From Diplonema papillatum (Eukaryota; Euglenozoa; Diplonemea; Diplonemida; Diplonemidae), in NCBI GenBank assembly GCA_030068145.1, contig JAPJBO010000766.1, forward strand, positions 45,979 through 109,978: a DNA stretch of 64,000 nucleotides, read 5' to 3'. A program made the translations under genes and the position numbers. This document shows, piece by piece, positions 23,229-60,947 of the stretch. The notes below the pieces were generated by a model. The model had not been told where the DNA came from. It saw only the letters and a program-made list of their open reading frames with translations, and ran no database searches. Position 1 is the first letter of the stretch. Each line of letters opens with the position of its first letter.

Positions 23229-23480
23229 GCAGGTGAGTTCCGCTGGCGCGAAGAATTCAACCTCTGACGCCGATGGCTCGGGCAGCGAAATGAGCTTCGT
23301 GCTGCTTGAAGGAACTGGGCTTCGCGGATAACGAGCGTGACGTACACTCGATGACAAGACAAAGCAATTGCACTCAATCTTAAACCTTCATCCTGAAAAC
23401 AGGGGAAAGGAACAAAGCCGGCTCTTCCCCTCCTCGCGTCCGCCGCATCTCGGTGTGCTTGTTGGCGCAAAAACAGGAAA
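23229..23480 (+). pseudogene. Oldest decayed 5' copy of the centrin-like gene
   Basis: Fragments of the centrin-like exon 1 are recognisable in order: CAGGTGAGTTCCGC, ATTCAACCTCTGACGCCGAT, GGCTCGGGCAGCGAAATGAG and CTGGGCTTCGCGGATAACGA, with frame-breaking indels. It ends, like the younger copy at 24060, with TTGCACTCAATCTTAAACCT, CATCCTGAAAACAGGG. Confidence 0.75.
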
Positions 23481-23559
23481 GCGAATATTCCGATTCCTTT
23501 TCGGATTATACCGAAGAATAGTTTCGGGCAATTCTATACAGCTTTAGGGGATCGGGATG

Positions 23560-24059
23560 GACCTGATAGACTGTGGTACATGACTCCCGCTAACGCAACA
23601 AGACGTGGGGCAGCATTGCATCACGAAGCTAACACACATCACCCGGTGACCAAAAACCCGGAATTTCAAGCGAACTTTAACTCCAAAAAACGATACGATA
23701 CGTACACTAAACTCACGATACCTTGTGACCCACCTTGGAGTTTTTCCGGGTTTGTGCCGGGTTGGTCCGGGGGTTTTATTTTTGTCTCCCCAGCACCCGC
23801 TAGCACCCTCGGTCGTTGAGATTTCAGTCTTCGCGGTGGATTTTGCCACGTTTCATGATCGTCTGGTGCTCGTGGGGGTTTGTCCCGCTCTTTGCTTCCC
23901 TCGCACTTCTGTCATGTCCAGCCTACGGGCTTCTGCATCTGGATCACACCATTAAAGGAACCCTTACGACAATGGTCACCCGGAGACTATAGCAACCCAG
24001 ATCCCTAAGTGAACTTGCACTCTAAAAACAGGGAAAAAGAGTAATTCAAAAGGGGCAGC
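23560..24059. other. Spacer with leader-like modules
   Basis: It carries two copies of the dispersed leader module (near 23648 and 23985) and otherwise no recognisable gene. Confidence 0.5.
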
Positions 24060-24262
24060 GTGGCACTCACGAAAGAGCAGATCAAGGAGGCTTCAACCTC
24101 TTTGATGCCGACGACTCGGACAGCCAGCGAAATGAGCTTGGTGCTGAAGGGGCTGGGTTTCACGGAGAACGAGCGCGACGCCCACTTGATGATCAAAGCG
24201 ATTGCACTCAAACTTAAACTCCATCCTGAAAGCAGGGGAAAGGAACAAAGTCAAACATCACC
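24060..24262 (+). pseudogene. Younger truncated 5' copy of the centrin-like gene
   Basis: It starts GTGGCACTCACGAAAGAGCA where the intact gene has ATGGCACTC, follows exon 1 to about codon 50 with a one-base loss early in EF-hand 1 and other small changes, and then departs into TTGCACTCAAACTTAAACTC. The loss of ATG, the frameshift and the missing EF-hands 2-4 make it a pseudogene. A leader module precedes it, as in the intact copy. Confidence 0.85.
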
Positions 24263-24371
24263 CGGTGACCCTAAAATTCCAGAATCTCAGGCGAACTTTA
24301 ACTCCAAAAAACGATACGATACGCACACAAACATACGATACCTTGAAGGAACATTTACGACAATGGTCACC

Positions 24372-24420
24372 CGGAGACTATAACACCCCGGATCTCCCTG
24401 AGTGAACTTGCAATCTAAAA
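24372..24420 (+). promoter_or_regulatory. Leader/promoter-like module upstream of the centrin-like gene
   Basis: CGGAGACTATAACACCCCGG, then GTGAACTTGCAATCTAAAAC, sits 35-80 nt before the start codon. It is a variant of the module seen before the RACK1 copies and the repeat-protein gene. It contains TATAA. Whether it is a core promoter or only a repeat is not shown by sequence alone. Confidence 0.45.
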
Positions 24421-24452
24421 CCAGGGAAAAGGAGCAAATCAAAAGGGGCAAC

Positions 24453-26914
24453 ATGGCACTCACGAAAGAGCAGATCAAAGAGGCATTCAACCTCTTTGAC
24501 GCCGATGGCTCGGGCACCATCGACGCCAGCGAAATGAGCTTGGTGCTGAAGGGGCTGGGCTTCACGGAGAACGAGCGCGACATCCACTCGATGATCAAAG
24601 CAATCGACACAGACGGATCGGGCAACGTCGGTTACGACGAGTTCGAAGAGTTGGTGCTCAGGCGCATGGAGAAGGCGGATTCTCCGGAAGAGATTTGGAA
24701 GGCGTACCACCTCTTCGACCCCAAGAAGACAGGCCGCATCACGTTCGACGAACTCAAACGAGTTGCCCTCCTCGAAGACCCTTCCATCGGCGACGACGAA
24801 GTTCACCGTGTCCTCACCGCTGTCGCTGACTACCCGGACAGAGTATGCACGCATCCACAATCTTTCTCAGTGCCAGGATAACACGAAAATCCTCGGGAGA
24901 CAGAAGTAGACAAAAACCACCCTTTTAACAGTTCCTTACAGCATGTGCTGCTTGTACTCAGACCGCCAGCCCTCACCTTTAGTAAGGTAAGATAGAGATA
25001 CTCCAGCACTCTACGTTCATCCCGAGTCTCCTGCAGACAGTAGTCAGCGCTGTCGCTGACTACCCGGACAGAGTATGCACATCCGCAAATTTCTTGTAGC
25101 AGCAATGCATTGCAACCCGAAAAGAGAACGCTGACACGCGTGTTTTGGAGAAGATCAGCCCTTAACGATCGGATTCCCTTCACTATCATTCACTGGCAGG
25201 CCAATCCTCCCCCCGGCACGTACAAACTTTGGCTAGGCTAAAGAGAGCAAAATAGTGAACGTGTACGTACAGTGGTGAGTAGAAAAGAGAACGAGGTAAA
25301 ATATTGGAGGTATCACAGACTACCAGACACCCGAAAAAAATTCCTTATCCGCTTCCTTATCCCTCAAAACCAGCACCAATAACAACGATCCCCCCGGCAC
25401 GTACAAACAAAAAGGCGGCTGACACCACTTGCGCACGGAACCATGGTTTAAAAGGCCGTAAGAAACCCCAAACACGAGTATAGCTCAAAGCATCTGCAGA
25501 ATAACACGAAACGCGTCCAGGCAAACCCCCGTTTCGCATTTCTTCAAGAAAGCATGTGATGTGCAGTCAGACCGCCAGCCCTCACTTTTAGTAAGTTAGA
25601 GGCATTCTAACCCACACTACTTTAGTCTGACAATAGGCTGCAGCTTGGCTTAGGAACAGGTTTCATCTGGTTCTACCCGGACAGAGTATATATGCGCCCG
25701 CATCTTTTTTTTAGAGTTAAAGTTTTTTAGTGCTAACAATCGTGCGGGTTGCCCTGCAGGTTGAACAGACGCAGACAGCGTGTTTTGGGGGTTGATCAGA
25801 ATTCCTTACCTGAAAAGGACACATCGGCCCGCACAAAAAGAAGTAGTAGGTGTCGTCTGCCGAAGCAGCCGGAGACAGCAGGCGCAGGGGGCAGGTCTTG
25901 CTCTACAATTTTCTTCTTCATGGAGACCCGCCCCCGGCAATCCCTACTGTCCAATCACTGTCGAGAAAGGTTTGTGCCCTATAGTGATGAGGTGGTTGAC
26001 CAGGCCCACGAAGCCTTATACACAACACGAGGATGCAGCCCTGCTTGGGTGTGCACTCAGCCATCACAGGGCCTCAGATCTCGCTACTTGACCTGACACA
26101 GCTGCCACCCAGAAAGAAGAAGAAGAAAGAAGAAGAAGAAAAAGGCCGCTCCTGGTCCAGGAACGTGACGGTCAACCACAGCTTGCAAAGCTTGAGTCGG
26201 AGGCAGCACAGTGCCACAACCCCGTCCGCTCTGCCCTGTGGCTGACCGTCTCGACGAGCTTGTGTTCAGCGCGAGCGCCAAGCCCCAAGGTGCGCCACGC
26301 CTTGATGCTTAGGTTGGGAAATCGGTAGCCACTTGACCCGTAGGCCCGTGGCTCTGCAGTACCGCCGAACACGTGAAGCTTGGCTCCCGTGTAGCAGGCT
26401 TTCCCTGGTACCAAGAAGTGGCAAGAAGAAGAAAAAAATAAAAAAGGCCGCTTCGGGTCCAGGAACGTGACGGTCAACCACAGCTTGCAAAACTTGAGTC
26501 GGAGGCAGCACAGTGCTGCAACCCGTCCGCTCTGCCCTGTGGCTGACCGTTTCGTCGAGCTTGTGTTCAGCGCGAGTGCCAAGCCCCAGGGCGTGCCATG
26601 CCTTGATGCTTTAGTTTGGGAAATCGGTGACACGCACAAATACGCCCAAGCACCCGCACTTGCACTTAAACCTCAAGCAACGACGCTTTCACAGCGAAAG
26701 CGTGCACCAAATAGACAACCCGTAACCATATAGCGCTCTCTTGCTCTAAGAGAACCCATTCGTCAACGGTCACACGGAGACCCTAAAACCCCGGAATTTC
26801 AAGCGAACTTTAACTCTAAATAAACATCCTTCCAAACAACAGGGCATCACCTTCGAAGAGTGGAAGAACGTCATGAACTCTCTCAAGAGCAACAAGGCGC
26901 GCCGGGGCTTGTGA
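24453..26914 (+). CDS. Centrin/calmodulin-like EF-hand protein, two exons
   Basis: Exon 1 (24453-24842, 130 codons) encodes [20 protein letters not shown] and three EF-hand loops: residues 16-27 ([12 protein letters not shown]), 52-63 ([12 protein letters not shown]) and 89-100 ([12 protein letters not shown]). The first two look competent for calcium; the third lacks most acidic ligands. At AGA/GTATGC there is a good donor in phase 0. About 2 kb downstream, ACAACAG/GGC opens a phase-0 exon (26843-26914) encoding [20 protein letters not shown] plus RGL and stop, the expected second half of a fourth EF-hand with a basic tail. The product would be 153 aa, normal for the family. The fourth loop (ADYPDRGITFEE) is degenerate. 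The [11 protein letters not shown] style favours centrin, a basal-body and contractile-fibre protein, over calmodulin. Without splicing, translation stops at 24881. Confidence 0.75.
25046..25082 (+). repeat. Copy of the centrin-like exon end and splice donor
   Basis: GCTGTCGCTGACTACCCGGA and CAGAGTATGCAC repeat the exon-1 end and donor at 24819-24850. A shorter one (TACCCGGACAGAGTAT) occurs near 25674. Confidence 0.9.
26130..26640 (+). repeat. Two tandem copies of dispersed repeat family A
   Basis: Both contain AGGCCGCTYCKGGTCCAGGA, ACGTGACGGTCAACCACAGC, TTGAGTCGGAGGCAGCACAG and TCCGCTCTGCCCTGTGGCTG, and end near the GGGAAATCGGT motif. They lie in the centrin-like intron in forward orientation. 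Confidence 0.9.
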
Positions 26915-31715: not shown

Positions 31716-31784
31716 AATGACGTTTGGCCATTGGTGCTGCACACGGCAACCCCATGTCCACTGTGCTCTGCGGAGTTTACTTCG

Positions 31785-32130
31785 CAGATTGCCACCGTAA
31801 AAAGAAGACAAGTCAGTGCTGCCTAGCGAGTCGCTGTCACAATTAGGGCGAGTGCCCTGGGGTTTTTAACTGATTGCTCAGACACGGTTGTAGGGGCCTT
31901 CTCCCCGTGACGGATTCGCCTGAGCTCTAGTAGCACGGGTGGTTCTGACTGTGACGAGCTACGAACAGCCGCCTGACAAACCGGACTCACACCGCAGTCC
32001 TGTCTGCAGACACTCTGGTTCCGCGCTGATGATGGTCCGCCTTATGTGTCCGTGGCTTAAAGGACCGAAACACGGCGCAGACGGGACCAGTGCGGTGTTG
32101 AACACACACCCATTCCAAGAACGTTCTTGC
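31785..32130 (+). repeat. Dispersed repeat family B
   Basis: It begins CGCAGATTGCCACCGTAAAA, includes GTAGCACGGGTGGTTCTGAC, CTGTCTGCAGACACTCTGGT and GTCCGTGGCTTAAAGGACCG, and ends near CATTCCAAGAACGTTCTTGC. A related copy is at 43730-43925. Its first part supplies the chimeric 3' ends of the RACK1 fragments. Confidence 0.85.
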
Positions 32131-32799
32131 AATCCCCCTTCATAGTTCGAGAATAGGCCAAAGGAAGCAGTTTCCCCGATGTCGCCAAGCATTGCTTGCT
32201 ATTCATATATCTTGCGCCATATGGGAGCACACCACACCATTACTGAAGATTTCAAAGCACAGTTCAGCATTCCATCACTGCTCAATAATCGGTCATCCAG
32301 GTAAGGGGGGCACACCATCATGCCACCTTCCGTGGGGAGCGCGCGGGCCTCCAGTGCAGGATCCAGTCGGAATGCAAGGTTGTCCCAAGGGTTCTCAGTA
32401 GAGTTCGAGCAGCAAGCACGGGTATGCCTATCTTCTATTTCCAGGAACGCGGCGCACGAAAGACCCGGGGTAAGGGGCTCGTGGTGGGCGCCTTCTTTTT
32501 TTGTGTCGCGACGTGGGACCGCTCTTATCTCTCCCAAGGGTTGGCAGGGTTTGGTGGGGGTGCGGGTGGATTTTAGCTGCGGATCCCTCTGTCGCGGATA
32601 TGTCAGAACCATTGCTGGGAGTTTCTGCTCTTCGTATTGTCTGACGAGAACTGCCTAGAAGAAAGGGAAAAGTAAGAACCCGTCTTTGTAACTGATAGCA
32701 CTAGCGCAAGGGAATGTTGAGTGACTGCCTTAACCCGGGGAAACGAGCTTGGGCGAGGTCACCGGGGGGTTAGGGAGGGTGGGAAAACTTGAATTTTTG
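32131..32799. other. Spacer
   Basis: No recognisable gene or array is seen. It is part of the insertion that separates the two halves of the LSU rRNA pseudogene. Confidence 0.4.
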
Positions 32800-40332: not shown

Positions 40333-40985
40333 ATTAGTTTGCAGATTTCTGGGTCTTGCAGATTTAGACCGGTGGTTTTGGCGGTGTGTTCTGGTCGGTT
40401 ATGTGTCGTGTCGGTGTTCGTCCAAAAATCCCGCGGCTCGTACCATATTGGGACGAGCTCCAAGAACAGTCAAACTCGAAACAGACAGTCTCGTCAGCCA
40501 GCTAAAGTGGTCCTGGAACCTATTATCCTATGATTCCTATGATAATAGGTCCGCGGTTTTGGTGTATCTGCACCTGCACCGCCGTGCTTACAACAACATT
40601 TTAGCGTTATTTTTAGCAACATCGCGCCGAAGGCGCGACGGAAATTTCCTCACCCTTGATAGACCATTGGAAAAAGCCTAGGAACGTTTCATCACCAATC
40701 AGTTTTACTTTCACGGTAAATTTTGGGCAAAAATAATACCGCTCCCTTTATCATGTGTGGCTCGTGTGGGGTACTCAACTGTCAAAGAGGACCTTGGCCC
40801 GGTAATGAAGCACAGTGGTAGCTGCAACTTGCCGACCCGAAGCTGAATACAATTGAACGGCAGCGGCTGGGTCTCGGCAGCGGAGGCTCAGCAGCCTTCC
40901 AGCACCTTCAGCGCTGCAACAAACACCACACCCCCCGCCTATGTTTATTTTGAACACCGTTTTTCTTTTGGGCATTTCTTTGCTG
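40333..40985 (+). mobile_element. Transposon-like element, copy 1
   Basis: It contains TTGCAGATTTAGACCGGTGG, TGATTCCTATGATAATAGGT, GTGTATCTGCACCTGCACCG, ATCGCGCCGAAGGCGCGACG and GAACGGCAGCGGCTGGGTCT, and ends near TTTTGAACACCGTTTTTC. All of these recur in order in reverse complement at 61200-61922. It lies directly upstream of the Spt4-like coding exon. Confidence 0.8.
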
Positions 40986-41077
40986 CCAACGTCTTTATCA
41001 CGTGCACAATGCATCGAAAAGGGCTACCCGCCAGATTGTTAGTGCCAAAGCAACCCCCCACACACACGGAACCGCAG

Positions 41078-41530
41078 GAGCAAGGCTGCAACAACTGCGC
41101 CCCGTACACGGATCCAACGAACGAGCGCGCAAACCCGGTGGACTGCGTGTTGAAGAACACGACGACGAACTTCGAGGGGATGGTGTGCATCTGCACGGGG
41201 TCGCGGCAGGACAGCTGGGTGTGCCGGTGGCAAGACTTGTGCCACGCAAGCCTGGCACCCGGCGCCTATGCTGTCACGCTCCGGACTGAGGTCGAAGACG
41301 AAGTCGAGGACGACCAAGACTCGTACGACAACACCGAAGCCGGTTCGGAGGCAGCGGCGAGCGAGGCCCCCGCAAACGAAGGCAGCGACGAAGACATGCC
41401 GTCGTCCGAGGTCGCCGAGTCCTTCGTCGGCGCCTCGCAGGTCGCGGCGACGGTGAAGAGCGAATTCAAGGCAGAAGTCAAGAGCGAAATCGGGGGCAGC
41501 ACCTTCGTCAGCGGCGCTCCCACCTTCTGA
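41078..41530 (+). CDS. Transcription elongation factor Spt4-like, C-terminal exon
   Basis: The frame reads EQGCNNCAPYTDPTNERANP, then TTNFEGMVCICTGSRQDSWV, then CRWQDLCHASLAPGAYAVTL. This matches the Spt4 core from the second zinc-binding pair (GCDNC) through FDGxxxxxxPxDSWVxKWQ to the PGxYAVxV strand. Spt4 pairs with Spt5 (DSIF) to govern RNA polymerase II elongation. The first pair (RACLxC) should lie in an upstream exon, which I could not find; ACCGCAG/GAG at 41077/41078 is a good phase-0 acceptor. ATG at 41010 gives no such Cys pair and reads into the flank of the element. After the core comes an extension absent from usual Spt4 (about 75 aa, acidic, ending VKSEFKAEVKSEIGG). Missing the first Cys pair, the piece alone could not make the zinc site. 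Confidence 0.7.
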   Translation, partial: EQGCNNCAPYTDPTNERANPVDCVLKNTTTNFEGMVCICTGSRQDSWVCRWQDLCHASLAPGAYAVTLRTEVEDEVEDDQDSYDNTEAGSEAAASEAPANEGSDEDMPSSEVAESFVGASQVAATVKSEFKAEVKSEIGGSTFVSGAPTF

Positions 41531-41745
41531 TCACCTCTACTCGGGCTTCGGCGTTTTCTGACGATTGAGCCGGTTCTTCCCCGCCTGATCGATCGTGGTC
41601 ACACCGTCATAGTTTGAGGTCAGAATGCCGCTTCAGAATGCCGTTTCTGATCACCCCTACTCGGGGGTTTCTGACAATTGAGCCGGGTCTTCTCTTCCCG
41701 ATCGATCGTCGTCACACCGTGATCGTTTGAAGTTAGAAAGCCGAA
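41531..41745 (+). repeat. Spt4-like 3'-flank duplication
   Basis: TGATCACCTCTACTCGGGCT through CGTGGTCACACCGTCATAGT (41529-41625) recurs with changes at 41647-41740, starting at the stop codon, so the 3' UTR itself is duplicated. Confidence 0.85.
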
Positions 41746-43925: not shown

Positions 43926-44069
43926 AAGCCCCAACCAACACGCTGACAGTCGGTGTCTCATTTAGCGCGAGCAATCCGTGTTCGAGGGTATAAATTTCAC
44001 ACCCCCCGCCACTACATCCACACTCCAGCCTGGCCTCTCAAAAAGAAGGGAAAAAAAGAAAAAGTAATC

Positions 44070-44456
44070 ATGTCGGACTCGCAGGGACACTTCAGCTACA
44101 AAGGACAGCTCAGGGGCCACGGCGGCTGGGTCACGTCCATCGCCTGTGCGGCCACAGGTGATGGCGTTCTGTCCGGCTCGCGGGACAGGTCGCTGATCCA
44201 GTGGGAGATCGGCACCGACAACGACGCCCAGCAGTGCGGGACCCCGATGAGGAGACTCGACGGGCACTCGAACTTCGTGCAGGACGTGCAGGTGTCGGAT
44301 GACGGCAAGTTCGGCATCTCGGCCGCGTGGGACGGCACCCTCAGGCTCTGGGACCTCGTCACACAGCGTCGACGTTCGCAGATTGCCACCGTAAAAAAGA
44401 AGAATAGCCAGTGCTGTACTAGCGAGTCGCAGTCACAACCAGGGCTGGGGCTCTGA
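44070..44456 (+). pseudogene. RACK1 5' fragment 1, chimeric end (type A)
   Basis: Identical to intact RACK1 from the start codon through [11 protein letters not shown] (about 99 codons, two WD repeats). At GTCACACAG/CGTCGACG it changes and runs into family B sequence, ending in RRRSQIATVKKKNSQCCTSE, SQSQPGLGL and TGA. The open frame and the upstream GGGAAAAAAAGAAAAAGTAATC leader are preserved, so a 128-aa product is possible. Its upstream flank is unique among the copies. Confidence 0.9.
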
Positions 44457-44741
44457 CTTTTTTTAAAAGTGATTGCTCTGACCCCTGGGTAGCACGGGTG
44501 GTCCTGGCTGATGGTCCGCTTTATGTGGCTTATAGGACCGAAACACGGTGTAGACGACCAGTGCGGTCTTGAGCAACATATCCATTCCATATGCAAAAAG
44601 AGAACCCCTTTCACAGCAGTCACACAGAGACCCTAAACCCCCGGATTTTCAAGCAACTCTAAAAACCACCACCACCGCCACAACCACAACCACACACCAG
44701 CCCTGCCTCTCAAAAAGAAGGAAAAAAAAGTAAAAGTAATC

Positions 44742-45137
44742 ATGTCGGACTCGCAGGGACACTTCAGCTACAAAGGACAGCTCAGGGGCCACGGCGGCTG
44801 GGTCACGTCCATCGCCTGTGCGGCCACAGGTGATGGCGTTCTGTCCGGCTCGCGGGACAGGTCGCTGATCCAGTGGGAGATCGGCACCGACAACGACGCC
44901 CAGCAGTGCGGGACCCCGATGAGGAGACTCGACGGGCACTCGAACTTCGTGCAGGACGTGCAGGTGTCGGATGACGGCAAGTTCGGCATCTCGGCCGCGT
45001 GGGACGGCACCCTCAGGCTCTGGGACCTCGTCACACAGGCGCCGCCGCGTCGACGTTCGCAGATTGCCACCGTAAAAAAGAAGAATAGCCAGTGCTGTAC
45101 TAGCGAGTCGCAGTCACAACCAGGGCTGGGGCTCTGA
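44742..45137 (+). pseudogene. RACK1 5' fragment 2, chimeric end (type B)
   Basis: Same as fragment 1 but it retains 9 extra bases at the junction (GCGCCGCCG, as in the intact gene), giving [13 protein letters not shown]. It is preceded by a leader module with CCACCACCACCGCCACAACC. Confidence 0.9.
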
Positions 45138-45422
45138 CTTTTTTTAAAAGTGATTGCTCTGACCCCTGGGTAGCACGGGTGGTCCTGGCTGATGGTCCGC
45201 TTTATGTGGCTTATAGGACCGAAACACGGTGTAGACGACCAGTGCGGTCTTGAGCAACATATCCATTCCATATGCAAAAAGAGAACCCCTTTCACAGCAG
45301 TCACACAGAGACCCTAAACCCCCGGATTTTCAAGCAACTCTAAAAACCACCACCACCGCCACAACCACAACCACACACCAGCCCTGCCTCTCAAAAAGAA
45401 GGAAAAAAAAGTAAAAGTAATC

Positions 45423-45809
45423 ATGTCGGACTCGCAGGGACACTTCAGCTACAAAGGACAGCTCAGGGGCCACGGCGGCTGGGTCACGTCCATCGCCTGT
45501 GCGGCCACAGGTGATGGCGTTCTGTCCGGCTCGCGGGACAGGTCGCTGATCCAGTGGGAGATCGGCACCGACAACGACGCCCAGCAGTGCGGGACCCCGA
45601 TGAGGAGACTCGACGGGCACTCGAACTTCGTGCAGGACGTGCAGGTGTCGGATGACGGCAAGTTCGGCATCTCGGCCGCGTGGGACGGCACCCTCAGGCT
45701 CTGGGACCTCGTCACACAGCGTCGACGTTCGCAGATTGCCACCGTAAAAAAGAAGAATAGCCAGTGCTGTACTAGCGAGTCGCAGTCACAACCAGGGCTG
45801 GGGCTCTGA
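45423..45809 (+). pseudogene. RACK1 5' fragment 3 (type A)
   Basis: Same sequence as fragment 1 in the coding part, with the leader of fragment 2. The unit start is 681 bp after that of fragment 2. Confidence 0.9.
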
Positions 45810-46098
45810 CTTTTTTTAAAAGTGATTGCTCTGACCCCTGGGTAGCACGGGTGGTCCTGGCTGATGGTCCGCTTTATGTGGCTTATAGGACCGAAACACG
45901 GTGTAGACGACCAGTGCGGTCTTGAGCAACATATCCATTCCAAGCACGTTCTTGCAAAAAGAGAACCCCTTTAACAGCAGTCACACAGAGACCCTAAACC
46001 CCCGGATTTTCAAGCGAACTTCAACTCTAAAAAACCACAACCACAACCACACTCCAGCCTGGCCTCTCAAAAAGAAGGGAAAAAAAGAAAAAGTAATC

Positions 46099-46494
46099 AT
46101 GTCGGACTCGCAGGGACACTTCAGCTACAAAGGACAGCTCAGGGGCCACGGCGGCTGGGTCACGTCCATCGCCTGTGCGGCCACAGGTGATGGCGTTCTG
46201 TCCGGCTCGCGGGACAGGTCGCTGATCCAGTGGGAGATCGGCACCGACAACGACGCCCAGCAGTGCGGGACCCCGATGAGGAGACTCGACGGGCACTCGA
46301 ACTTCGTGCAGGACGTGCAGGTGTCGGATGACGGCAAGTTCGGCATCTCGGCCGCGTGGGACGGCACCCTCAGGCTCTGGGACCTCGTCACACAGGCGCC
46401 GCCGCGTCGACGTTCGCAGATTGCCACCGTAAAAAAGAAGAATAGCCAGTGCTGTACTAGCGAGTCGCAGTCACAACCAGGGCTGGGGCTCTGA
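46099..46494 (+). pseudogene. RACK1 5' fragment 4 (type B)
   Basis: Junction as in fragment 2, but the leader is of the intact-gene kind (CATTCCAAGCACGTTCTTGC, then TCAAGCGAACTTCAACTCTA). Confidence 0.9.
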
Positions 46495-46779
46495 CTTTTT
46501 TTAAAAGTGATTGCTCTGACCCCTGGGTAGCACGGGTGGTCCTGGCTGATGGTCCGCTTTATGTGGCTTATAGGACCGAAACACGGTGTAGACGACCAGT
46601 GCGGTCTTGAGCAACATATCCATTCCATATGCAAAAAGAGAACCCCTTTAACAGCAGTCACACAGAGACCCTAAACCCCCGGATTTTCAAGCAACTCTAA
46701 AAACCACCACCACCGCCACAACCACAACCACACACCAGCCCTGCCTCTCAAAAAGAAGGAAAAAAAAGTAAAAGTAATC

Positions 46780-47166
46780 ATGTCGGACTCGCAGGGACAC
46801 TTCAGCTACAAAGGACAGCTCAGGGGCCACGGCGGCTGGGTCACGTCCATCGCCTGTGCGGCCACAGGTGATGGCGTTCTGTCCGGCTCGCGGGACAGGT
46901 CGCTGATCCAGTGGGAGATCGGCACCGACAACGACGCCCAGCAGTGCGGGACCCCGATGAGGAGACTCGACGGGCACTCGAACTTCGTGCAGGACGTGCA
47001 GGCGTCGGATGACGGCAAGTTCGGCATCTCGGCCGCGTGGGACGGCACCCTCAGGCTCTGGGACCTCGTCACACAGCGTCGACGTTCGCAGATTGCCACC
47101 GTAAAAAAGAAGAATAGCCAGTGCTGTACTAGCGAGTCGCAGTCACAACCAGGGCTGGGGCCCTGA
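46780..47166 (+). pseudogene. RACK1 5' fragment 5 (type A)
   Basis: As fragment 3 but with two substitutions that change the protein (QDVQASDDG in place of QDVQVSDDG, and a final GLGP). Confidence 0.9.
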
Positions 47167-47319
47167 CTTTTTTTAAAAGTGATTGCTCTGACACCTGGGT
47201 AGCACGGGTGGTCCTGGCTGATGGTCCGCTTTATGTGGCTTATAGGACCGAAACACGGTGTAGACGACCAGTGCGGTCTTGAGCAACATATCCATTCCAA
47301 GCACGTTCTTGCAAAAAGA

Positions 47320-47375
47320 GAACCACACAGAGACCCTAAACCCCCGGATTTTCAAGCGAACTTCAACTCTAAAAA
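47320..47375 (+). promoter_or_regulatory. Leader module before intact RACK1
   Basis: ACACAGAGACCCTAAACCCC, CGGATTTTCAAGCGAACTTC, AACTCTAAA ends about 70 nt upstream of the RACK1 start. The same module stands before fragments 2-5, always at a similar distance. Confidence 0.5.
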
Positions 47376-47440
47376 ACCACAACCACAACCACACTCCAGC
47401 CTGGCCTCTCAAAAAGAAGGGAAAAAAAGAAAAAGTAATC

Positions 47441-48400
47441 ATGTCGGACTCGCAGGGACACTTCAGCTACAAAGGACAGCTCAGGGGCCACGGCGGCTGG
47501 GTCACGTCCATCGCCTGTGCGGCCACAGGTGATGGCGTTCTGTCCGGCTCGCGGGACAGGTCGCTGATCCAGTGGGAGATCGGCACCGACAACGACGCCC
47601 AGCAGTGCGGGACCCCGATGAGGAGACTCGACGGGCACTCGAACTTCGTGCAGGACGTGCAGGTGTCGGATGACGGCAAGTTCGGCATCTCGGCCGCGTG
47701 GGACGGCACCCTCAGGCTCTGGGACCTCGTCACAGGCGCCGCCGCGTCGACGTTCGTCGGGCACAAGAAGGACGCCCTGTCGTGCGCGTTCTCACCCCTG
47801 AAGAACCAGATCATCTCCGGGTCCAGGGACAGGACCGTCCGCCTGTGGAACACCCTCGGCGAAAACAAGTTCACGATCGAGTCCAACCAGGGCCACTCTG
47901 ACTGGGTGTCCTGCACCCGATTCTCGCCCAACCAGCAGAACCCCATTTTCGTGTCGTGCGGCTGGGACAAGATGGTGAAGGTGTGGAACAGCACGGACCT
48001 CACCCTGCAGTCCGACTTGATCGGCCACGAAGCCTACCTGAACACGGTCACCATGTCGCCCGACGGCTCCCTCTGCGCCTCAGGAGGCAAAGACGGCTCC
48101 GCCATGCTTTGGGACCTCAGCAGGGGTGAGAGACTCGACACCCTCGAGGGCACCGACGTCATCCACGAGCTCGTCTTCTCGCCCAACAGGTACTGGCTCT
48201 GCGCCGCGACGTCTACGTGCATCAAGATCTGGGACCTCGAGAGCCACCAGACCGTCGCCGAGCTCGTGCCCGAGCTGCCGCAGATGGGCAAGAAGGCCAT
48301 GAAGCCCGAGTGCATCTCCCTGGCTTGGTCTCCGGACGGCAGCACCCTGTACTCTGGATACACTGACAACACCATCCGTGTCTGGGGCGTCAGCGGATAA
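47441..48400 (+). CDS. RACK1: RACK1, seven-bladed WD40 ribosomal scaffold protein
   Basis: The 319-aa product spans the full length of the family (usually 310-320). RACK1 binds the head of the small ribosomal subunit near the mRNA exit and anchors signalling proteins. Seven WD repeats run the whole length: [127 protein letters not shown] and [22 protein letters not shown]-type [11 protein letters not shown] and [16 protein letters not shown] are signature stretches. ATG at 47441 is preceded by an A-rich leader and starts [14 protein letters not shown]; the longer in-frame upstream reading is UTR. The gene is intronless and strongly GC-biased at third positions, suggesting high expression. It is the last of six tandem copies and the only complete one. 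Confidence 0.97.
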
Positions 48401-48411
48401 GTCAGCTTCAA

Positions 48412-52003: not shown

Positions 52004-52019
52004 TAATATTAATTATTTT

Positions 52020-52679: not shown

Positions 52680-53150
52680 TCACGACACTGTTGACCGCAC
52701 CTTAATTGAGCCGCGGTCGCCGATCCCCCAACCGCCAGCATCATGTACTTGATGCGACGCGGAACCAGTGCTGACAGCACCGCCCGGCGAATAGAGGGCC
52801 ACAAACGTGGCAAATCGACCGGTCGGGGGGTGCTTAGCAGCCAATGGCCTGATGGCTGAGTGCACACCTAAGCAGGGCTGCATCCTCGTGTTGTAGCCGT
52901 GTTGTGTATAAGGCTTCGTGGGGGCCTGGTCAACCACCTCATCATGACAGTGATTGGACAGCCGGGATGCCGGGGGCGGGTCTCCATGAAGAAGAGAAAA
53001 GTAAAGCAAGACCTGCCCCCTGCGCCTGCTGTCTCCGGCTGCTTCGGCAGACGACACATACTACTGCTACTACTACTACGTTTGGCACTAACTGCGGCCT
53101 GCTGCTGATTTGTCATCAAGCAAGTTGAACAATCCGCTGTGCCAATTCCC
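52680..53150 (-). repeat. Inverted partial copy of 25840-26100
   Basis: TGTAGCCGTGTTGTGTATAA, CTGGTCAACCACCTCATCAT and GCAAGACCTGCCCCCTGCGC are the complement of stretches in the centrin-like intron (25860-26060), which are a dispersed repeat. Confidence 0.8.
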
Positions 53151-53189
53151 TCAGTAAACTGCAACACTATGCAACAAAGACACACGCAC

Positions 53190-54402
53190 AAGCACACGTA
53201 CTGCCACTACGGCAGATGCGAGGCGTACAATAGCATACTATGCCTTAAAGAAACCCTCACGACAATGGCCACCTGGAGACTATAAACTTGCACTCTAATA
53301 ATCATATACCTACTCCCCTCATACTACCCGCCTCCCAGCCTCAATGGTCAACCGGAGACCCTGAAACACCGAACCTCTAAACCACAAGAAACGCTAATAT
53401 CCCGGATTCACCCCGAGACTCTAAAATCCCGGATTGTCAAGCGCACTATAACTCTCGAATTCCCACCGAACGCGACTCGGCGCTGGCAACTGTCGCTAGT
53501 GAGCATCACCTGTAAACAAACACCTTTCGTTCCGATGCGGAATCTTCACCACTTTTTCTCCCACACAGCGAAAACGTGCGCAGGCCTGGGGACCAGGATC
53601 CCAAGCTCGCCGCGGCCACAGCGGCCACGCGGCCCATCCGAACACGCACAAGCACACGTCCTGCCACTACGGCAGATGCGAGGCGCACAATAGGCCTGAA
53701 AGAAACCCTCACGACAATGGCCACCTGGAGACTATAAACTTGCACTCTAATAATCATATACCTACTCCCCTCATACTACCCGCCTCCCAGCCTCAATGGT
53801 CAACCGGAGACCCTAAAACACCGAACCTCTAAACCACAAGAAACGCTAATATCCCGGATTCACCCGGAGACTCTAAAATCCCGGATTGTCAAGCGCACTA
53901 GAACTCTCGCATTCCCACCGAACGCGACTCGGCGCTGGCAACTGTCGCTAGTGAGCATCACCTGTAAACAAACACCTTTCGTTCCGATGCGGAATCTTCA
54001 CCACTTTTTCTCCCACACAGCGAAAACGTGCGCAGGCCTGGGGACCAGGATCCCAAGCTCGCCGCGGCCACAGCGGCCACGCGGCCCATCCGAACACGCA
54101 CAAGCACACGTACTGCCACTACGGCAGATGCGAGGCGCACAATAGGCCTTAAAGAAACCCTCACGACAATGGCCACCTGGAGACTATAAACTTGCACTCT
54201 AATAATCATATACCTACTCCCCTCATACTACCCGCCTCCCAGCCTCAATGGTCAACCGGAGACCCTAAAACACCGAACCTCTAAACCACAAGAAACGCTA
54301 ATATCCCGGATTCACCCGGAGACTCTAAAATCCCGGATTGTCAAGCGCACTATAACTCTCGCATTCCCACCGAACGCGACTCGGCGCTGGCAGCTGTCAC
54401 AA
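53190..54402 (+). repeat. Tandem 452-bp units: promoter region, first exon and intron of the repeat-protein gene
   Basis: CACGTACTGCCACTACGGCA, TGGCCACCTGGAGACTATAA, ACTTGCACTCTAATAATCAT, TCAATGGTCAACCGGAGACC, GATTCACCCGGAGACTCTAA and TGTCAAGCGCACTATAACTC recur in three copies 452-456 bp apart. In the first two, GTGAGC follows at the donor position and the intron and start of exon 2 are included. The third leads into the complete gene. Substitutions are very few. Confidence 0.95.
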
Positions 54403-54475
54403 GTGAGTGGCATTACCTGTAAACAAACACCTTTCGTTCCGATGCGGAATCTTCACCACTTTTTCTCCCACACAG
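54403..54475 (+). other. 5'-UTR intron of the repeat-protein gene
   Basis: GTGAGTGGC to TTTTTCTCCCACACAG, 73 nt, with a consensus donor and pyrimidine-rich acceptor. The upstream copies have GTGAGCATC. Confidence 0.6.
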
Positions 54476-54554
54476 CGAAAACGTGCGCAGGCCTGGGGAC
54501 CAGGATCCCAAGCCCGCCGCGGCCACAGCGGCCACGCGGCCCATCCGAACACGG

Positions 54555-55760
54555 ATGACACCTATTGCTCTTCCAGCGCAGACGGAAGCCCAGCTGCAAT
54601 TCCTCGATTCTGCAGCCCAGCCCGCCCAAACGCAGCCGAAGGCCGCAAGCTCGCAAGACCGTCCACCAGCACAAGCACCCCAGCAAGGCGCCGCCGTTCC
54701 AACGCAAACAGCACGCGTGCCTGAGGGCGCTTCGGAAGCGCAGAGGCAAGGTCCGGAACCCGCATCCAAACGCGCCCGAACGCAGCCGAGTGCCGCAAGC
54801 TCGCAAGACCGTCCACCAGCACCTGCACCCCAGCAAGGTGCCGCCGTTCCAACGCAAGTGCCTGACGGCGCTTCGGAAGCGCAGAGGCAAGGTCCGGAAC
54901 CCGCATCCAAACGCGCCCGAACGCAGCCGAATGCCGCAAGCTCGCAAGACCGTCCACCAGCACCTGCACCCCAGCAAGGCGCCGCCGTTCCAACGCAAGT
55001 GCCTGACGGCGCTTCGGAAGCGCAGAGGCAAGGTCCCGAACCATCCAAACGCGCCCGAACGCAGCCGAATGCCGCAGACCGTCCACCAGCACCTGCACCC
55101 CAGCAAGGCGCCGCCGTTCCAACACAAGTGCCTGACGGCGCTTCGGAAGCGCAGAGGCAAGGTCCCGAACCATCCAAACGCGCCCGAACGCAGCCGAGTG
55201 CCGCAAGCTCGCAAGACCGTCCACCAGCACCTGCACCCCAGCAAGGTGCCGCCGTTCCAACGCAAGTGCCTGACGGCGCTTCGGAAGCGCAGAGGCAAGG
55301 TCCCGAACCCGCATCCAAACGCGCCCGAACGCAGCCGAATGCCGCAAGCTCGCAGCAGGAGCTCCCCCCGTCTGCACCGCCGCAGGGCGCCCCCCCGCTC
55401 CAACGGGGTGCTGCGGCCCATCCCCGTACGGCCGAGCAGGGCCCGGAAGCCGCGCGCCCGCAGGCTCCGCCGGCGGCGCTGCCGTCTCAGGACAGCGCGC
55501 CGCCGCAGGGCGCCCTCGCTCCCGACAGCATCCCGGAGCCGGACTGCGCGCGCCACTTGTCCTTCGACGTGTCCCAGTCTTCGGCGCCGCAGAGTCCTTC
55601 TTACTCGCCTGTTGAAAGTACTCCAATGGAAATGGGCACCCAGGTGTCACAGACGCAGGAATCCGAAGTTGTCCTGGTGGCAGTCAAGGTGGAAGAATCG
55701 ACTCAGGATGAAGTCTTGATGGCAGTCAAGGTGGAAGAATCGACTCAGGATGAAATGTAG
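54555..55760 (+). CDS. Pro/Gln/Ala-rich tandem-repeat protein, function unknown
   Basis: From ATG at 54555 the 401-aa protein starts MTPIALPAQTEAQLQFLDSA and then has five repeats of 43-47 aa, each with SQDRPPAPAPQQGAAVPTQV, PDGASEAQRQGPEP and SKRARTQPNA. The KRAR element in every repeat is nuclear-localisation-like. A low-complexity Pro/Ala segment follows (PSAPPQGAPPLQRGAAAHPR). The C-terminus is different: HLSFDVSQSSAPQSPSYSPV, ESTPMEMGTQVSQTQESEVV and two copies of VAVKVEESTQDE or similar. SYSP/SPVESTP are possible phosphorylation sites and VKVE fits the SUMO consensus. No known domain is seen; a disordered nuclear protein is inferred. Long frames also open on the other frames and strand because of GC content, but only this one has a fitting start after an intron and a distinct C-terminus that is copied in the downstream array. 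Confidence 0.6.
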   Translation: MTPIALPAQTEAQLQFLDSAAQPAQTQPKAASSQDRPPAQAPQQGAAVPTQTARVPEGASEAQRQGPEPASKRARTQPSAASSQDRPPAPAPQQGAAVPTQVPDGASEAQRQGPEPASKRARTQPNAASSQDRPPAPAPQQGAAVPTQVPDGASEAQRQGPEPSKRARTQPNAADRPPAPAPQQGAAVPTQVPDGASEAQRQGPEPSKRARTQPSAASSQDRPPAPAPQQGAAVPTQVPDGASEAQRQGPEPASKRARTQPNAASSQQELPPSAPPQGAPPLQRGAAAHPRTAEQGPEAARPQAPPAALPSQDSAPPQGALAPDSIPEPDCARHLSFDVSQSSAPQSPSYSPVESTPMEMGTQVSQTQESEVVLVAVKVEESTQDEVLMAVKVEESTQDEM

Positions 55761-55884
55761 TGACCGTCTCGCCAGTTGAAAGCACTCCCATGGAAATGGG
55801 TACCATGCAGGGTCAAAACCTTGTGTCTTTTTGGTAAATGCTGCCGCGGGGCCGACAGAGCCCAAAAAAAAAAGTTGGATTTTT

Positions 55885-56065
55885 TTTTTAGTACTAACAA
55901 TCTTGTGGGTTGCCCTTCAATGTATTGTGCAGGCTAAAAAGGCGTAGGCAGCGTGTTTTGGTGGTTGATCAGAATTCCTTACCCGAATACACACAGGGTA
56001 AATACAAGTGGGAAAACGATCAACCGGCACGCACAAACAAAACGAAGCGCCTGTCTTTTTTGCTC
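55885..56065. repeat. Dispersed repeat family C, single copy
   Basis: ACTAACAATCTTGTGGGTTG, TGTGCAGGCTAAAAAGGCGT, TTGATCAGAATTCCTTACCC and CAACCGGCACGCACAAACAA match the array at 22040-22640. Confidence 0.85.
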
Positions 56066-56228
56066 AACTTCATCAAAAATTAGCGCAGTTTTTGTTCCAC
56101 ATTTATATTCTTTTTCAAAAACCCAATTTTCTTCCAGAAAAACTGGAAAAAATGGGTGGCCATTTTTTTCGGGTCTAAATTCCTCTTACCAAAAAGACAA
56201 GGTTCTGACCCTGCATGGTACCCACCAG

Positions 56229-58135
56229 GGCACCTTCTCGCCAGTTGAGAGCACTCCTAATGAAATGAGTTGTACCCAGGTGTCACAGACCCAGGAATCG
56301 GAAGTTGTCTTGGTGGCGGTGAAGGTGGGAGAATCGACTCAGGATGAAATGTAATGGCCTTCTCGCCAGTTGAGAGCACTCCTAATGAAATGAGTTGTAC
56401 CCAGGTGTCACAGACCCAGGAATCGGAAGTTGTCTTGGTGGCGGTGAAGGTGGGAGAATCGACTCAGGATGAAATGTAATGACCTTCTCGCCAGTTGAAA
56501 AAGCGCTTTCATGGAAATGAGTGTATCCAGGTGTCACATGGCGTAGAAGAGTTACAGCAGACTCAGGATGAAATGCAGTGACCTCCTCGCCATTTGAAAG
56601 CAAGCACACCCATGGAATTGAGCTGTACCCAGGTTTGTTGCAGCCCCAGGAGCTCGAGTCGCCTTGGTGGCTAAAGGTGGAAGAATCGACTCAGGATGAA
56701 ATGTAATGACCTTCTCGCCAGTTGAGAGCACTCCTAATGAAATGAGTTGTACCCAGGTGTCACAGACCCAGGAATCGGAAGTTGTCTTGGTGGCGGTGAA
56801 GGTGGGAGAATCGACTCAGGATGAAATGTAATGACCTTCTCGCCAGTTGAGAGCACTCCTAATGAAATGAGTTGTACCCAGGTGTCACAGACCCAGGAAT
56901 CGGAAGTTGTCTTGGTGGCGGTGAAGGTGGGAGAATCGACTCAGGATGAAATGTAATGACCTTCTCGCCAGTTGAGAGCACTCCTAATGAAATGAGTTGT
57001 ACCCAGGTGTCACAGACCCAGGAATCGGAAGTTGTCTTGGTGGCGGTGAAGGTGGGAGAATCGACTCAGGATGAAATGTAATGACCTTCTCGCCAGTTGA
57101 GAGCACTCCTAATGAAATGAGTTGTACCCAGGTGTCACAGACCCAGGAATCGGAAGTTGTCTTGGTGGCGGTGAAGGTGGGAGAATCGACTCAGGATGAA
57201 ATGTAATGACCTTCTCGCCAGTTGAGAGCACTCCTAATGAAATGAGTTGTACCCAGGTGTCACAGACCCAGGAATCGGAAGTTGTCTTGGTGGCGGTGAA
57301 GGTGGGAGAATCGACTCAGGATGAAATGTAATGACCTTCTCGCCAGTTGAAAAAGCGCTTTCATGGAAATGAGTGTATCCAGGTGTCACATGGCGTAGAA
57401 GAGTTACAGCAGACTCAGGATGAAATGTAATGACCTTCTCGCCAGTTGAAAAAGCGCTTTCATGGAAATGAGTGTATCCAGGTGTCACATGGCGTAGAAG
57501 AGTTACAGCAGACTCAGGATGAAATGCAGTGACCTCCTCGCCATTTGAAAGCAAGCACACCCATGGAATTGAGCTGTACCCAGGTTTGTTGCAGCCCCAG
57601 GAGCTCGAGTCGCCTTGGTGGCTAAAGGTGGAAGAATCGACTCAGGATGAAATGTAATGACCTTCTCGCCAGTTGAGAGCACTCCTAATGAAATGAGTTG
57701 TACCCAGGTGTCACAGACCCAGGAATCGGAAGTTGTCTTGGTGGCGGTGAAGGTGGGAGAATCGACTCAGGATGAAATGTAATGACCTTCTCGCCAGTTG
57801 AGAGCACTCCTAATGAAATGAGTTGTACCCAGGTGTCACAGACCCAGGAATCGGAAGTTGTCTTGGTGGCGGTGAAGGTGGGAGAATCGACTCAGGATGA
57901 AATGTAACGACCTTCTCGCCAGCTGAAAAAGCGCTTTCATGGAAATGAGTGTATCCAGGTGTCACATGGCGTAGAAGAGTTACAGCAGACTCAGGATGAA
58001 ATGCAGTGACCTCCTCGCCATTTGAAAGCAAGCACACCCATGGAATTGAGCTGTACCCAGGTTTGTTGCAGCCCCAGGAGCTCGAGTCGCCTTGGTGGCT
58101 AAAGGTGGAAGAATCGACTCAGGATGAAATGTAAC
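56229..58135 (+). repeat. Array of 3' ends of the repeat-protein gene, about 16 units
   Basis: Three unit types occur: a (about 125 bp, CTTCTCGCCAGTTGAGAGCA to AGGATGAAATGTAATGA), b (about 103 bp, with GTTGAAAAAGCGCTTTCATG) and c (about 125 bp, with CCATTTGAAAGCAAGCACAC), in the order aabc aaaaabbc aabc. Type a in frame encodes SPVESTPNEMSCTQVSQTQE, SEVVLVAVKVGESTQDEM and stop, the C-terminus of the gene at 54555-55760. Most a units are identical. Confidence 0.93.
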
Positions 58136-58394
58136 GAATCTCTCTTTGAAGACGCGAGAGGACAAAGCGGAAGATTGGTGTGCCCTGTCTGCATCTGGGC
58201 CGTCGCTCACAGTGAGTTCGCACCGCAGATTCAGAAGCCGAGCCCCACATCGTGGCAGTTGCTGCCTGTTGTCATCGACACAGCGAGCGTTGGAGTATTT
58301 CGAAGGATCGATCAACACATTCCTTGCTGGCGTGCGGCCTCTCGTTTTTTCCAGCCTTCGTTTGTCACAGTAGCACACCGTCGCTTCGCACGGC

Positions 58395-58640
58395 TGGTAC
58401 TGGTAGTCGTCTCCAAGAAGGGCGACAACATCGCGGTGGGGTGCATGGTCGACAGCTGCAAGGGTTGCACCCCGTGCCACGCTGGGGAAGAGCAGTCCTG
58501 CACCGAGGGAACGGTCAGACGTACGGGTCGAACGATCGCGCCACAGGCGACGCCACCCAAGGAGGCTACTCGAAACAACGTTGTCCGTGAAGACTTCGTG
58601 CTTCACGTACCTGAGTCTCGACCTCTCTAGGGCTGGGCCC
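58395..58640 (+). pseudogene. Internal ADH fragment, long
   Basis: From AAGAAGGGCGACAACATCGC (58417) the sequence follows intact ADH codons about 79-150, including the zinc loop VGCMVDSCKGCTPCHAGEEQ, then diverges after CCCCTTCTCT. Small indels break the frame near TCAGACGTACGGG. It is the least decayed ADH fragment. Confidence 0.9.
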
Positions 58641-58679
58641 CTTCTCTCCCCCCATTCCAATTAACTCGACCAGCAGGTT

Positions 58680-59700
58680 AGCACCGCACACATTCACGAG
58701 ATTGTACAGGATATAACGTCAAGAACTTCAAGAAAGGTGACAAAACAATGCAGTGGCGTGACAGCTGCAAGGCTTGCACCCTGTGTGCCATGCTGGAGAA
58801 GAGCAGTACTGCACCGAGGGAATGGTGCAGACATACACTTTTATACGAAACCACAATAAACGCAAGAATGCATCCCCATTCCAACTAGCTCCACCAGCAG
58901 GGTAGCACCGCACACATTCACGAGATTGTAGGGAAGGTTGTCACAGGGTATGACGTCAAGAACTTCGAGAAAGGTGACACAACAATGCAGTGGCGTGCAT
59001 GGTTGACAGCTGCCAGGGCTTGCACCCTGTGTGCCATGCTGGAGAAGAGCAGTACTGCACCGAGGGAATGGTGCAGACATACACTTTTATACGAAACCAC
59101 AATAAACGCAAGAATGCATCCCCATTCCAACTAGCTCCACCAGCAGGGTAGCACCGCACACATTCACGAGATTGTAGGGAAGGTTGCCACAGGGTATGAC
59201 GTCAAGAACTTCGAGAAAGGTGACACAACAATGCAGTGGCGTGCATGGTTGACAGCTGCCAGGGCTTGCACCCTATGTGCCATGCTGGAGAAGAGCAGTA
59301 CTGCACCGAGGGAATGGTGCAGACATGCGCTTTTATACGAAACCACAATAAACGCAAGAATGCATCCCCATTCCAACTAGCTCCACCAGCAGGGTAGCAC
59401 CGCACACATTCACGAGATTGTACAGGATATAACGTCAAGAACTTCAAGAAAGGTGACAAAACAATGCAGTGGCGTGACAGCTGCAAGGCTTGCACCCTGT
59501 GTGCCATGCTGGAGAAGAGCAGTACTGCACCGAGGGAATGGTGCAGACATACACTTTTATACGAAACCACAAGAAACGCAAGAATGCATCCCCATTCCAA
59601 CTAGCTCCACCAGCAGGGTAGCACCGCACACATTCACGAGATTGTAGGGAAGGTTGTCACAGGGTATGACGTCAAGAACTTCGAGAAAGGTGACACAACA
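58680..59700 (+). repeat. ADH promoter/zinc-loop chimeric array, units of 220-250 bp
   Basis: CACGAGATTGTA occurs at about 58695, 58919, 59166, 59410 and 59637, each followed by a decayed copy of ADH codons about 62-111 (GACGTCAAGAACTTC, GTGCCATGCTGGAGAAGAGC, ACCGAGGGAATGGTGCAGAC). Then comes a stretch matching the region before the intact gene (CTTTTATACGAAACCACAAT, AATGCATCCCCATTCCAACT, AGCTCCACCAGCAGG). Two sub-types alternate (with and without GCATGGTTGACAGCTGCCAG). Confidence 0.92.
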
Positions 59701-59794
59701 ATGCAGTGGCGTGCATGGTTGACAGCTGCCAGGGCTTGCACCCTATGTGCCATGCTGGAGAAGAGCAGTACTGCACCGAGGGAATGGTGCAGAC

Positions 59795-59870
59795 ATGCGC
59801 TTTTATACGAATTCACAATACACGCAAGAATGCATCCCCATTCCAACTAGCTCCACCAGCAGGTTGCCAA
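59795..59870 (+). promoter_or_regulatory. ADH promoter region
   Basis: CTTTTATACGAATTCACAAT and the block ending CACCAGCAGG lie 40-110 nt upstream of the ADH start. CTTTTATAC is a TATA-like element kept in every array unit. Confidence 0.4.
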
Positions 59871-59906
59871 CAACCACACCTCTTTCTAACCAAGAAACAA
59901 AAAACG

Positions 59907-60947
59907 ATGAAGACGGTCGGCTACGCAGCGCAGAGTGCCACAAGCGGCCTCGCTCAATGGGAGTTCGAAAGACGCGAACTGCGCTCGAACGACGTCGCAT
60001 TCGAGATTCTGTACTGCGGCGTGTGCCACACCGACCTTCACCAGTCGCGGAACGACTGGGGCTGGGCGAGCTACCCGCTTGTGCCCGGCCACGAGATTGT
60101 GGGAAGGGTCGTCGAAGTGGGGTCTGACGTCAAGAACTTCAAGAAAGGCGACAACATCGCGGTGGGGTGCATGGTCGACAGCTGCAAGGGTTGCACCCCG
60201 TGCCACGCTGGGGAAGAGCAGTACTGCACCGAGGGAATGGTGCAGACGTACGGGTCGAAGGATCGCATCACAGGCGACGCCACCCAAGGAGGCTACTCGA
60301 AGCACAACGTCGTCCGCGAAGACTTCGTGCTGCACGTGCCGGAAGGTCTCGACCTCTCCAGGACTGGGCCCCTTCTCTGCGCTGGGATCACGACGTACTC
60401 ACCCCTGCGCACTTGGAACGTCGGGCCAGGGTCATCCGTCGCTGTTGTCGGGATGGGCGGTCTGGGGCACATGGCTGTGAAGCTCGCAGCGGCCATGGGC
60501 GCGAAGGTGACCGTCATCAGCAGGTCGCCCGGGAAGAAGGAGGAAGCGCTGCGGCTGGGAGCCGACGCCTTCTTGGTCTCGACCGCCGAAGAGGACATGG
60601 CGAAGGCGGCGTCGGCGTTCGAGCTGATCATCGACACGGTGCCGGCGAAGCACGACATCACCCCTTACCTGTCACTCCTGACGCTCGACGGCACCATCGT
60701 TCTTGTGGGGCAGGTGGGCCCGCTGAGTGAGGTGAGCACCGTGCCGCTCATCATGGGCCGCCGTAGGGTCGCTGGATCCCTCATCGGCGGCATCGCCCAG
60801 ACCCAGGAAATGCTCGACTTCTGCGCCCGCAAGAACGTCCTCCCGGACTGCGAGATGATCCGCATGGACGGGATCAACGAGGCCTTCAAGCGCATGGAAA
60901 AGTCCGACGTCCGCTACCGCTTCGTCATCGACATGGCGTCCTTGTAG
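59907..60947 (+). CDS. Zinc-dependent alcohol dehydrogenase (CAD/YahK-type)
   Basis: The 346-aa enzyme belongs to the medium-chain, zinc-dependent dehydrogenases and would reduce aldehydes with NADPH, or the reverse. Catalytic zinc ligands are Cys40 (YCGVCHTDLH), His62 (PGHE) and a later Cys (LLCAGITTYSPL). The structural zinc site is Cys93, 96, 99 and 107 (DSCKGCTPCHAGEEQYC). The Rossmann motif GMGGLG opens the nucleotide-binding half (VAVVGMGGLGHMAVKLAAAM), and VTVISRSPGKKEEALRLGAD, with Ser-Arg after the second strand, suggests NADP preference. Length is normal for YahK/cinnamyl-type enzymes (345-360). ATG at 59907 was chosen because MKTVGYAAQS is the family start; the frame is open upstream through 5'-flank sequence. 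The gene is intronless and bacterial-like in content, so an ancient transfer is possible, but its codon use matches its neighbours. Likely cytosolic. Confidence 0.95.
   Translation: MKTVGYAAQSATSGLAQWEFERRELRSNDVAFEILYCGVCHTDLHQSRNDWGWASYPLVPGHEIVGRVVEVGSDVKNFKKGDNIAVGCMVDSCKGCTPCHAGEEQYCTEGMVQTYGSKDRITGDATQGGYSKHNVVREDFVLHVPEGLDLSRTGPLLCAGITTYSPLRTWNVGPGSSVAVVGMGGLGHMAVKLAAAMGAKVTVISRSPGKKEEALRLGADAFLVSTAEEDMAKAASAFELIIDTVPAKHDITPYLSLLTLDGTIVLVGQVGPLSEVSTVPLIMGRRRVAGSLIGGIAQTQEMLDFCARKNVLPDCEMIRMDGINEAFKRMEKSDVRYRFVIDMASL

Follow-up and report, generated by a model that had tools for sequence, protein, structure and literature searches.

Diplonema papillatum is a single-celled marine flagellate, and its 271-Mb assembly comprises 2910 contigs. 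We analysed a window of 64,000 nucleotides from this assembly (contig JAPJBO010000766.1, here C766, positions 45979-109978), in which several intact genes are accompanied by partial copies of themselves. Repeats in the window were found by self-comparison and BLAST, and tandem repeats with TRF; the local partial copies lie far above chance (BLAST E <= 1e-8; 57 TRF rows).

Genes and local fragments in the window

Same-strand partial copies adjoin the genes for RACK1, a centrin-like protein, a zinc alcohol dehydrogenase (ADH), an IFT70-like protein, an Spt4-like protein and a DUF3431-like protein (Table 1), which bears out the central claim of an earlier note that intact genes in this region stand beside fragments of themselves. 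The copies that it listed are real, but those of IFT70 and Spt4 contain only 6 bp and 3 bp of coding sequence (CDS), respectively, and are essentially derived from the untranslated region (UTR). It had placed the pattern in the interval 23229..60947, outside which the IFT70 and DUF3431-like genes fall. Copies of the 3' end of what it called a repeat protein are likewise present, but the open reading frame (ORF) concerned has no Pfam match and may not be a gene.

Table 1. Genes, gene fragments and related repeats in the window (window positions)
Feature	Position	Strand	Evidence
DUF3431-like gene, 5' end outside window	1..1056	+	PF11913 E=0.00076, under cut-off
3' copy of DUF3431-like gene, 79%, frameshifted, downstream	1062..1613	+	
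IFT70-like TPR gene, at least 2 exons, 5' limit approximate	18222..20797	+	Pfam; 99% and 87% matches on C167
IFT70 3'UTR tandem array, in part common to C167	20822..21836	+	
Older centrin 5' fragment, 76-80%	23255..23417	+	self-comparison
Centrin 5' fragment, upstream, 86.6%	23952..24202	+	self-comparison
Centrin-like first exon (end approximate, from ORF)	24453..24820	+	EF-hand Pfam matches
Dispersed element, separate copy of part of RACK1 unit tail	31781..32132	+	self-comparison
Spt4-like ORF	40847..41527	+	PF06093 E=2.1e-9
Copy of Spt4 3'UTR 41525-41630 (~100 bp), downstream	41645..41743	+	
Tandem array of five units (RACK1 5'UTR, ~294 bp of CDS and a dispersed-repeat tail in each)	44003..47376	+	self-comparison
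Intact RACK1 CDS	47441..48397	+	WD40 Pfam matches; closest PDB chain RACK1 of 6zj3, E=3.9e-139
Open repeat ORF, doubtful gene	54423..55757	+	no Pfam family
Tandem copies of repeat ORF 3' end, downstream	56232..58134	+	
ADH fragment array: 5' flank 59795-59863 fused to CDS 60090-60251, and CDS 60137-60378 in a single copy	58411..59863	+	
Intact ADH CDS	59907..60944	+	ADH_N, ADH_zinc_N

The structure from which the closest RACK1 chain comes (6zj3) we take to be the Euglena gracilis ribosome. The five RACK1 units have their start codons at 44070, 44742, 45423, 46099 and 46780, and their CDS parts differ from the gene at 0, 0, 0, 0 and 1 of 294 positions, with a small indel near the junction; the start codon and the reading frame are kept across most of the copied CDS. 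At the junction the CDS at GACGTTCG is joined to the dispersed element at CTTCG/CAGATTGCC, with 4 bp (TTCG) common to both, and this represents one event seen five times. Across the assembly nine DNA matches to RACK1 were detected, of which four are whole copies and five are pieces, the latter on C766 beside the gene. A DNA search with 54560-58140, crowded with matches to dispersed repeats, gave no other long match to the repeat ORF among the best 40 of 3952 candidates. A dispersed element of about 180 bp at 55879-56062 was found to be up to 99% identical at about 40 places among the matches listed.

Side, strand and background of the fragments

For a background we used 280 kb of the same assembly, consisting of 24 ten-kb stretches chosen blind at round coordinates, 20 of them from the 78 longest contigs and hence biased to long contigs, together with eight gene-centred proteasome loci, which were the near-complete ones from 24 PF00227 matches and were selected by that match alone. 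The labels L001-L040 denote individual sampled stretches or loci of the assembly. Fragments were termed strict if they were local, on the same strand as the gene and included at least 25 bp of its CDS.

All 15 strict fragments lie on the side predicted from a simple tandem duplication, with 5' parts upstream and 3' parts downstream of the gene, an outcome with a chance of 3e-5 under a fair coin. They comprise four in the window (RACK1, centrin, ADH and DUF3431), two on contig C167 (Spt4 and ADH), one at an ADH paralogue on C71, and eight in the sample, which belong to seven ORFs (L010, L012, L015, L027 at both ends, L032, L033 and L035). The sample contains 43 predicted ORFs, eight of which are in stretches duplicated nearly whole; these seven are among the other 35. 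Six of the seven are supported by Pfam matches (a molybdenum-cofactor oxidoreductase, a RING finger protein, FAM161 and three proteasome subunits), and L010 has a weak TPR match alone. Terminal fragments were seen at four of the eight PF00227 loci, all on the predicted side, the case at L038 being weak. At IFT70, the DUF3431-like gene, L015 and L035 it is the 3' end that is repeated, in the 3'UTR or an intron.

Several further cases on the predicted side were left out of this count: the copies of the window's repeat ORF and of the IFT70 and Spt4 UTRs, L025 (ORF under the score cut-off), L038 (weak), L030 (low complexity), the 4.4-kb duplication that copies the 5' part of the L020 ORF, and a distant piece on C690 considered below. 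Whole-ORF duplications, which have no side, occur at L017, L018, L028 and the small L020 ORF. The scripted geometry of tandem duplication restates the side prediction and is not independent evidence. The 24 whole-protein PF00227 matches showed no clear nearby repeat of the same domain part, but they are blurred by exons and by stops at C859 and C970, and were not used. Two large, very recent tandem duplications, either true or due to assembly error, were also noted at L020:68-8820 (4375 bp, 99.9% identical) and L028:3972-10000 (a copy of a methionine-synthase gene, 99.5%).

Local repeats on the same strand cover 18.4% of the sample, as against 2.5% for those on the opposite strand, and the contention that partial tandem duplication on this scale is not a normal background consequently fails for this genome. 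The window is an upper-range case: under the same criteria 48.2% of its first 60 kb is in same-strand local repeats, and coverage above 48% was reached in 3 of the 20 first-sampled ten-kb stretches. With the four stretches that bear whole-ORF duplications (L017, L018, L020 and L028) omitted, coverage was 11.7% in intergenic sequence, 14.9% in 200-bp flanks, 11.9% at CDS ends and 4.1% in CDS cores; the bootstrap 95% intervals for the difference from intergenic sequence were -4.5 to +12.2 points for flanks, -6.3 to +8.4 for ends and -11.8 to -2.7 for cores. Since gene ends are covered about as much as intergenic sequence, there is no evidence for the targeting of genes in these 280 kb. The targeting of genes that is implied in a mechanism repeatedly re-copying their ends is thus not supported, as the intervals for both ends and flanks include zero.

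A sister segment on contig C167 and other features

DNA searches recovered IFT70, centrin, Spt4, RACK1 and ADH on the minus strand of C167 in the order in which they occur in the window (at 81-77, 60, 45, 42-41 and 39-38 kb). The sister segment common to C167 and C766 spans at least 40 kb. The sequenced strain is given as haploid in the genome paper (PMC10161547), which would make the two paralogous segments rather than alleles; the comparison is valid under either reading.

The two loci differ in their fragments. The C167 RACK1 gene is 100% identical to that of the window over 1024 bp, and neither a RACK1 5' fragment nor a second RACK1 match was found on C167 with 4 of 4 candidates scored. 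The ADH gene of C167 (97% identity) has a 3' fragment downstream, and the upstream fragment array was not found there (10 of 10 candidates scored). Spt4 (96% identity) has on C167 a downstream 3' CDS fragment which the window lacks. The centrin gene gave a single match on C167 and no fragments among the best 40 of 4714 candidates, which is a weaker negative than those for RACK1 and ADH; its 5' fragments are probably missing from C167 too. Given these differences, fragments have been gained or lost while the genes remained intact, and gain or loss has been independent at the two sister loci. A DNA search with the spacer between RACK1 and ADH (window 48390-60100) was swamped by dispersed repeats, with 39 of 16506 candidates scored, and is uninformative on C167. 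Upstream of the C167 ADH gene lies a 168-bp tandem repeat with an exact 156-bp core (L040:1-433), which is not derived from ADH.

The noncoding sequence around RACK1 is merely 70-83% alike between the two contigs (70-80% upstream), and the complete identity of the gene amid such flanks suggests gene conversion or very strong constraint. The RACK1 array shows 0% divergence, and the ADH and centrin fragments 8-24%. As the upstream noncoding sequence has diverged so much further than the RACK1 array, the split of the sister segments predates this array; it probably also predates the ADH and centrin fragments, whose order is less sure.

Elsewhere in the window no tRNA was detected by ARAGORN, and a piece of the 28S ribosomal RNA gene (269 bits) is present at 50761-51235, upstream of a TFIIIC_sub6-like ORF. 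This agrees with the many scattered 28S pieces that are described for the genome of D. papillatum (PMC10161547).

Origin and retention of the fragments

We consider it quite probable that the fragments are best explained by frequent local tandem duplication, with selection purging the cases that break genes. DNA segments of about 50 bp to several kb would often be duplicated head to tail at sites that are not gene-directed, and would then grow or shrink as arrays, their copy number being altered later through unequal exchange. A duplication with one breakpoint inside a gene and the other outside would leave the gene intact and add a fragment, which would be a 5' part upstream or a 3' part downstream; one with both breakpoints inside the CDS would usually break the gene, and would be removed by selection. 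The pattern observed would then be that of the surviving duplications. This reading draws on the side and strand of the fragments, on the repeat coverage of the sample and on the differing fragments of the two sister loci, all of which are observed, whereas the removal of the other duplications by selection is inferred. The RACK1 units include a dispersed repeat, and the ADH, centrin and L012 fragments include 5' flank, which indicates that they are copies of DNA. The 4375-bp duplication at L020, with a 3-bp overlap, provides a fresh example of such an event. How the ends were joined is less clear-cut. Joining by little or no homology, through template switching or end joining, would fit, and we lean towards it over slippage with the balance close to even. 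An event of the template-switching type, which the earlier note had offered, is possible given the 4 bp shared at the RACK1 junction; the junctions in general are mixed.

Several observations weigh against frequent local duplication with purging. Among ten simple pairs, four junctions overlap (by 1, 8, 10 and 8 bp) and six have spacers of 5-18 bp, two being cut by stretch ends. The ADH units lack 59864-60089, and an extra deletion is required to derive them. DUF3431 pieces are found on other contigs (176 bp at 87% on C180, and 112 bp at 74% on C192), and one on C690 lies 22 kb away from its gene. At L023 the copies are on the opposite strand, contrary to the side rule, although the sequence is probably noncoding. 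The depletion of CDS cores hinges on excluding the four stretches with whole-ORF duplications, an exclusion chosen post hoc: with all stretches retained, coverage is 16.1% in intergenic sequence, 23.9% in flanks, 24.4% at CDS ends and 23.8% in cores, which are then undepleted, since duplication also affects entire ORFs and those with internal repeats.

A further such point concerns divergence. In six fragments (L010, L012, L015, L025, L035 and the centrin fragment at 23952-24202), with 30 bp trimmed from each end, 27 of 1084 coding sites differ from the parent as against 83 of 669 noncoding sites, an approximately five-fold difference; L027, having no noncoding part, was omitted. Without trimming, coding divergence was below noncoding divergence in most fragments, with the exception of L032. 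In the L012 and L015 alignments the noncoding mismatches are located along the edges of blocks and within a minisatellite; an edge artefact was rejected as the source of the low coding divergence, as the signal persisted after trimming. Beside a frozen gene the neutral expectation for the coding to noncoding ratio is at least about one half, so constraint on the gene alone accounts for a two-fold and not a five-fold difference, and the remainder could stem from gene conversion, composition or selection. It is conceivable, if unlikely, that conversion or selection keeps the coding parts near their parent, and that the fragments might then serve as nearby stores of coding sequence or as 5' ends that act as trans-splicing decoys.

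Retention of the fragments for a function, be it as shortened transcripts or proteins, as decoy acceptors in trans-splicing, as small RNAs or as gene-conversion donors, appears improbable to us. The coding to noncoding ratio, being under the neutral minimum, and the preserved start codon and frame of the RACK1 copies are in its favor, but the 5' arrays of RACK1 and ADH are missing at the sister genes on C167. Moreover, the fragments of ADH, centrin, DUF3431 and L010 have 2-4 frameshifting indels each, which in these older fragments speaks against protein function, the noncoding part of L015 is a minisatellite, and rates may vary with composition. The suggestion of a selected source of truncated products fares poorly for the same absent arrays and frameshifts, though the low coding divergence points the other way.

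Re-integration of gene pieces beside the gene, from complementary DNA or extrachromosomal DNA, is in our estimate very unlikely. The diplonemid spliced leader (SL) 22-mer has 608 exact copies dispersed across the assembly, which implies that products of reverse transcription integrate somewhere, and some DUF3431 pieces are located elsewhere. However, the 15 strict fragments are local, on the same strand and on one predictable side of their genes, fragments carry 5' flank or dispersed repeats, RACK1 pieces occur only beside the gene, and a search allowing up to 2 mismatches found no SL in the window; extrachromosomal pieces, as proposed before, fit this poorly. The SL RNA genes of D. papillatum number 110 (PMC10161547). 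All six SL copies inspected (L001-L006, at position 1501 of each) head stretches of repeat or non-genic sequence, and the adjoining sequence is alike between L001 and L005 and between L002 and L003, as would result from the reverse transcription and insertion of RNAs carrying the SL. An assembly artefact, in the form of chimeric or mis-expanded contigs, is the most remote of these explanations: C766 and C167 do share near-identical genes, but the units show ordered substitutions, their divergence ranges between 0 and more than 30%, most kinds of sampled stretches contain fragments, and PacBio reads span one such locus in the published assembly (PMC10161547).

The SL-tagged retrocopies of dinoflagellates are similar in being extra gene pieces in a trans-splicing organism, but they are derived from RNA and tagged with the SL, whereas the fragments here have flanks and no SL. 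Closer to local duplication is the birth of minisatellites through microhomology-associated tandem duplication, in which unique local DNA is copied head to tail with short or no homology and the array then grows. Head-to-tail copying and growth are alike in the two; in D. papillatum the events are unusually abundant, and the junction evidence is small and mixed. The fragment pattern itself has already been published by Valach et al. 2023 (PMC10161547) as 'repeat-bounded gene structures', with dozens of cases from curation; PacBio support is reported there for one locus, and so is, for one locus, the absence of the array from mature mRNA. The likeness extends to the tandem repetition of the 5'UTR and part of the CDS upstream (here at RACK1 and the centrin-like gene), the repetition of an exon 3' end in an intron or the 3'UTR, and the presence of degenerate copies with one intact gene. 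In the sections consulted, that paper offers neither a mechanism nor a side rule and neither compares sister loci nor tests for targeting, and our literature search turned up no later treatment of the cause of these structures. New here are the sister-locus comparison, the 15/15 side rule and the repeat coverage that shows no sign of gene targeting.

A curiosity of the genome paper thus becomes a rule that is testable genome-wide, namely that the side and strand of a fragment follow from simple tandem duplication. Annotators of diplonemid genomes should by default regard truncated gene models next to intact genes as debris. Should the low coding divergence be borne out in a larger number of fragments, conversion or selection acting on them would deserve serious consideration. 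The paired loci on C766 and C167 offer before-and-after views of the birth and loss of gene-derived minisatellites.

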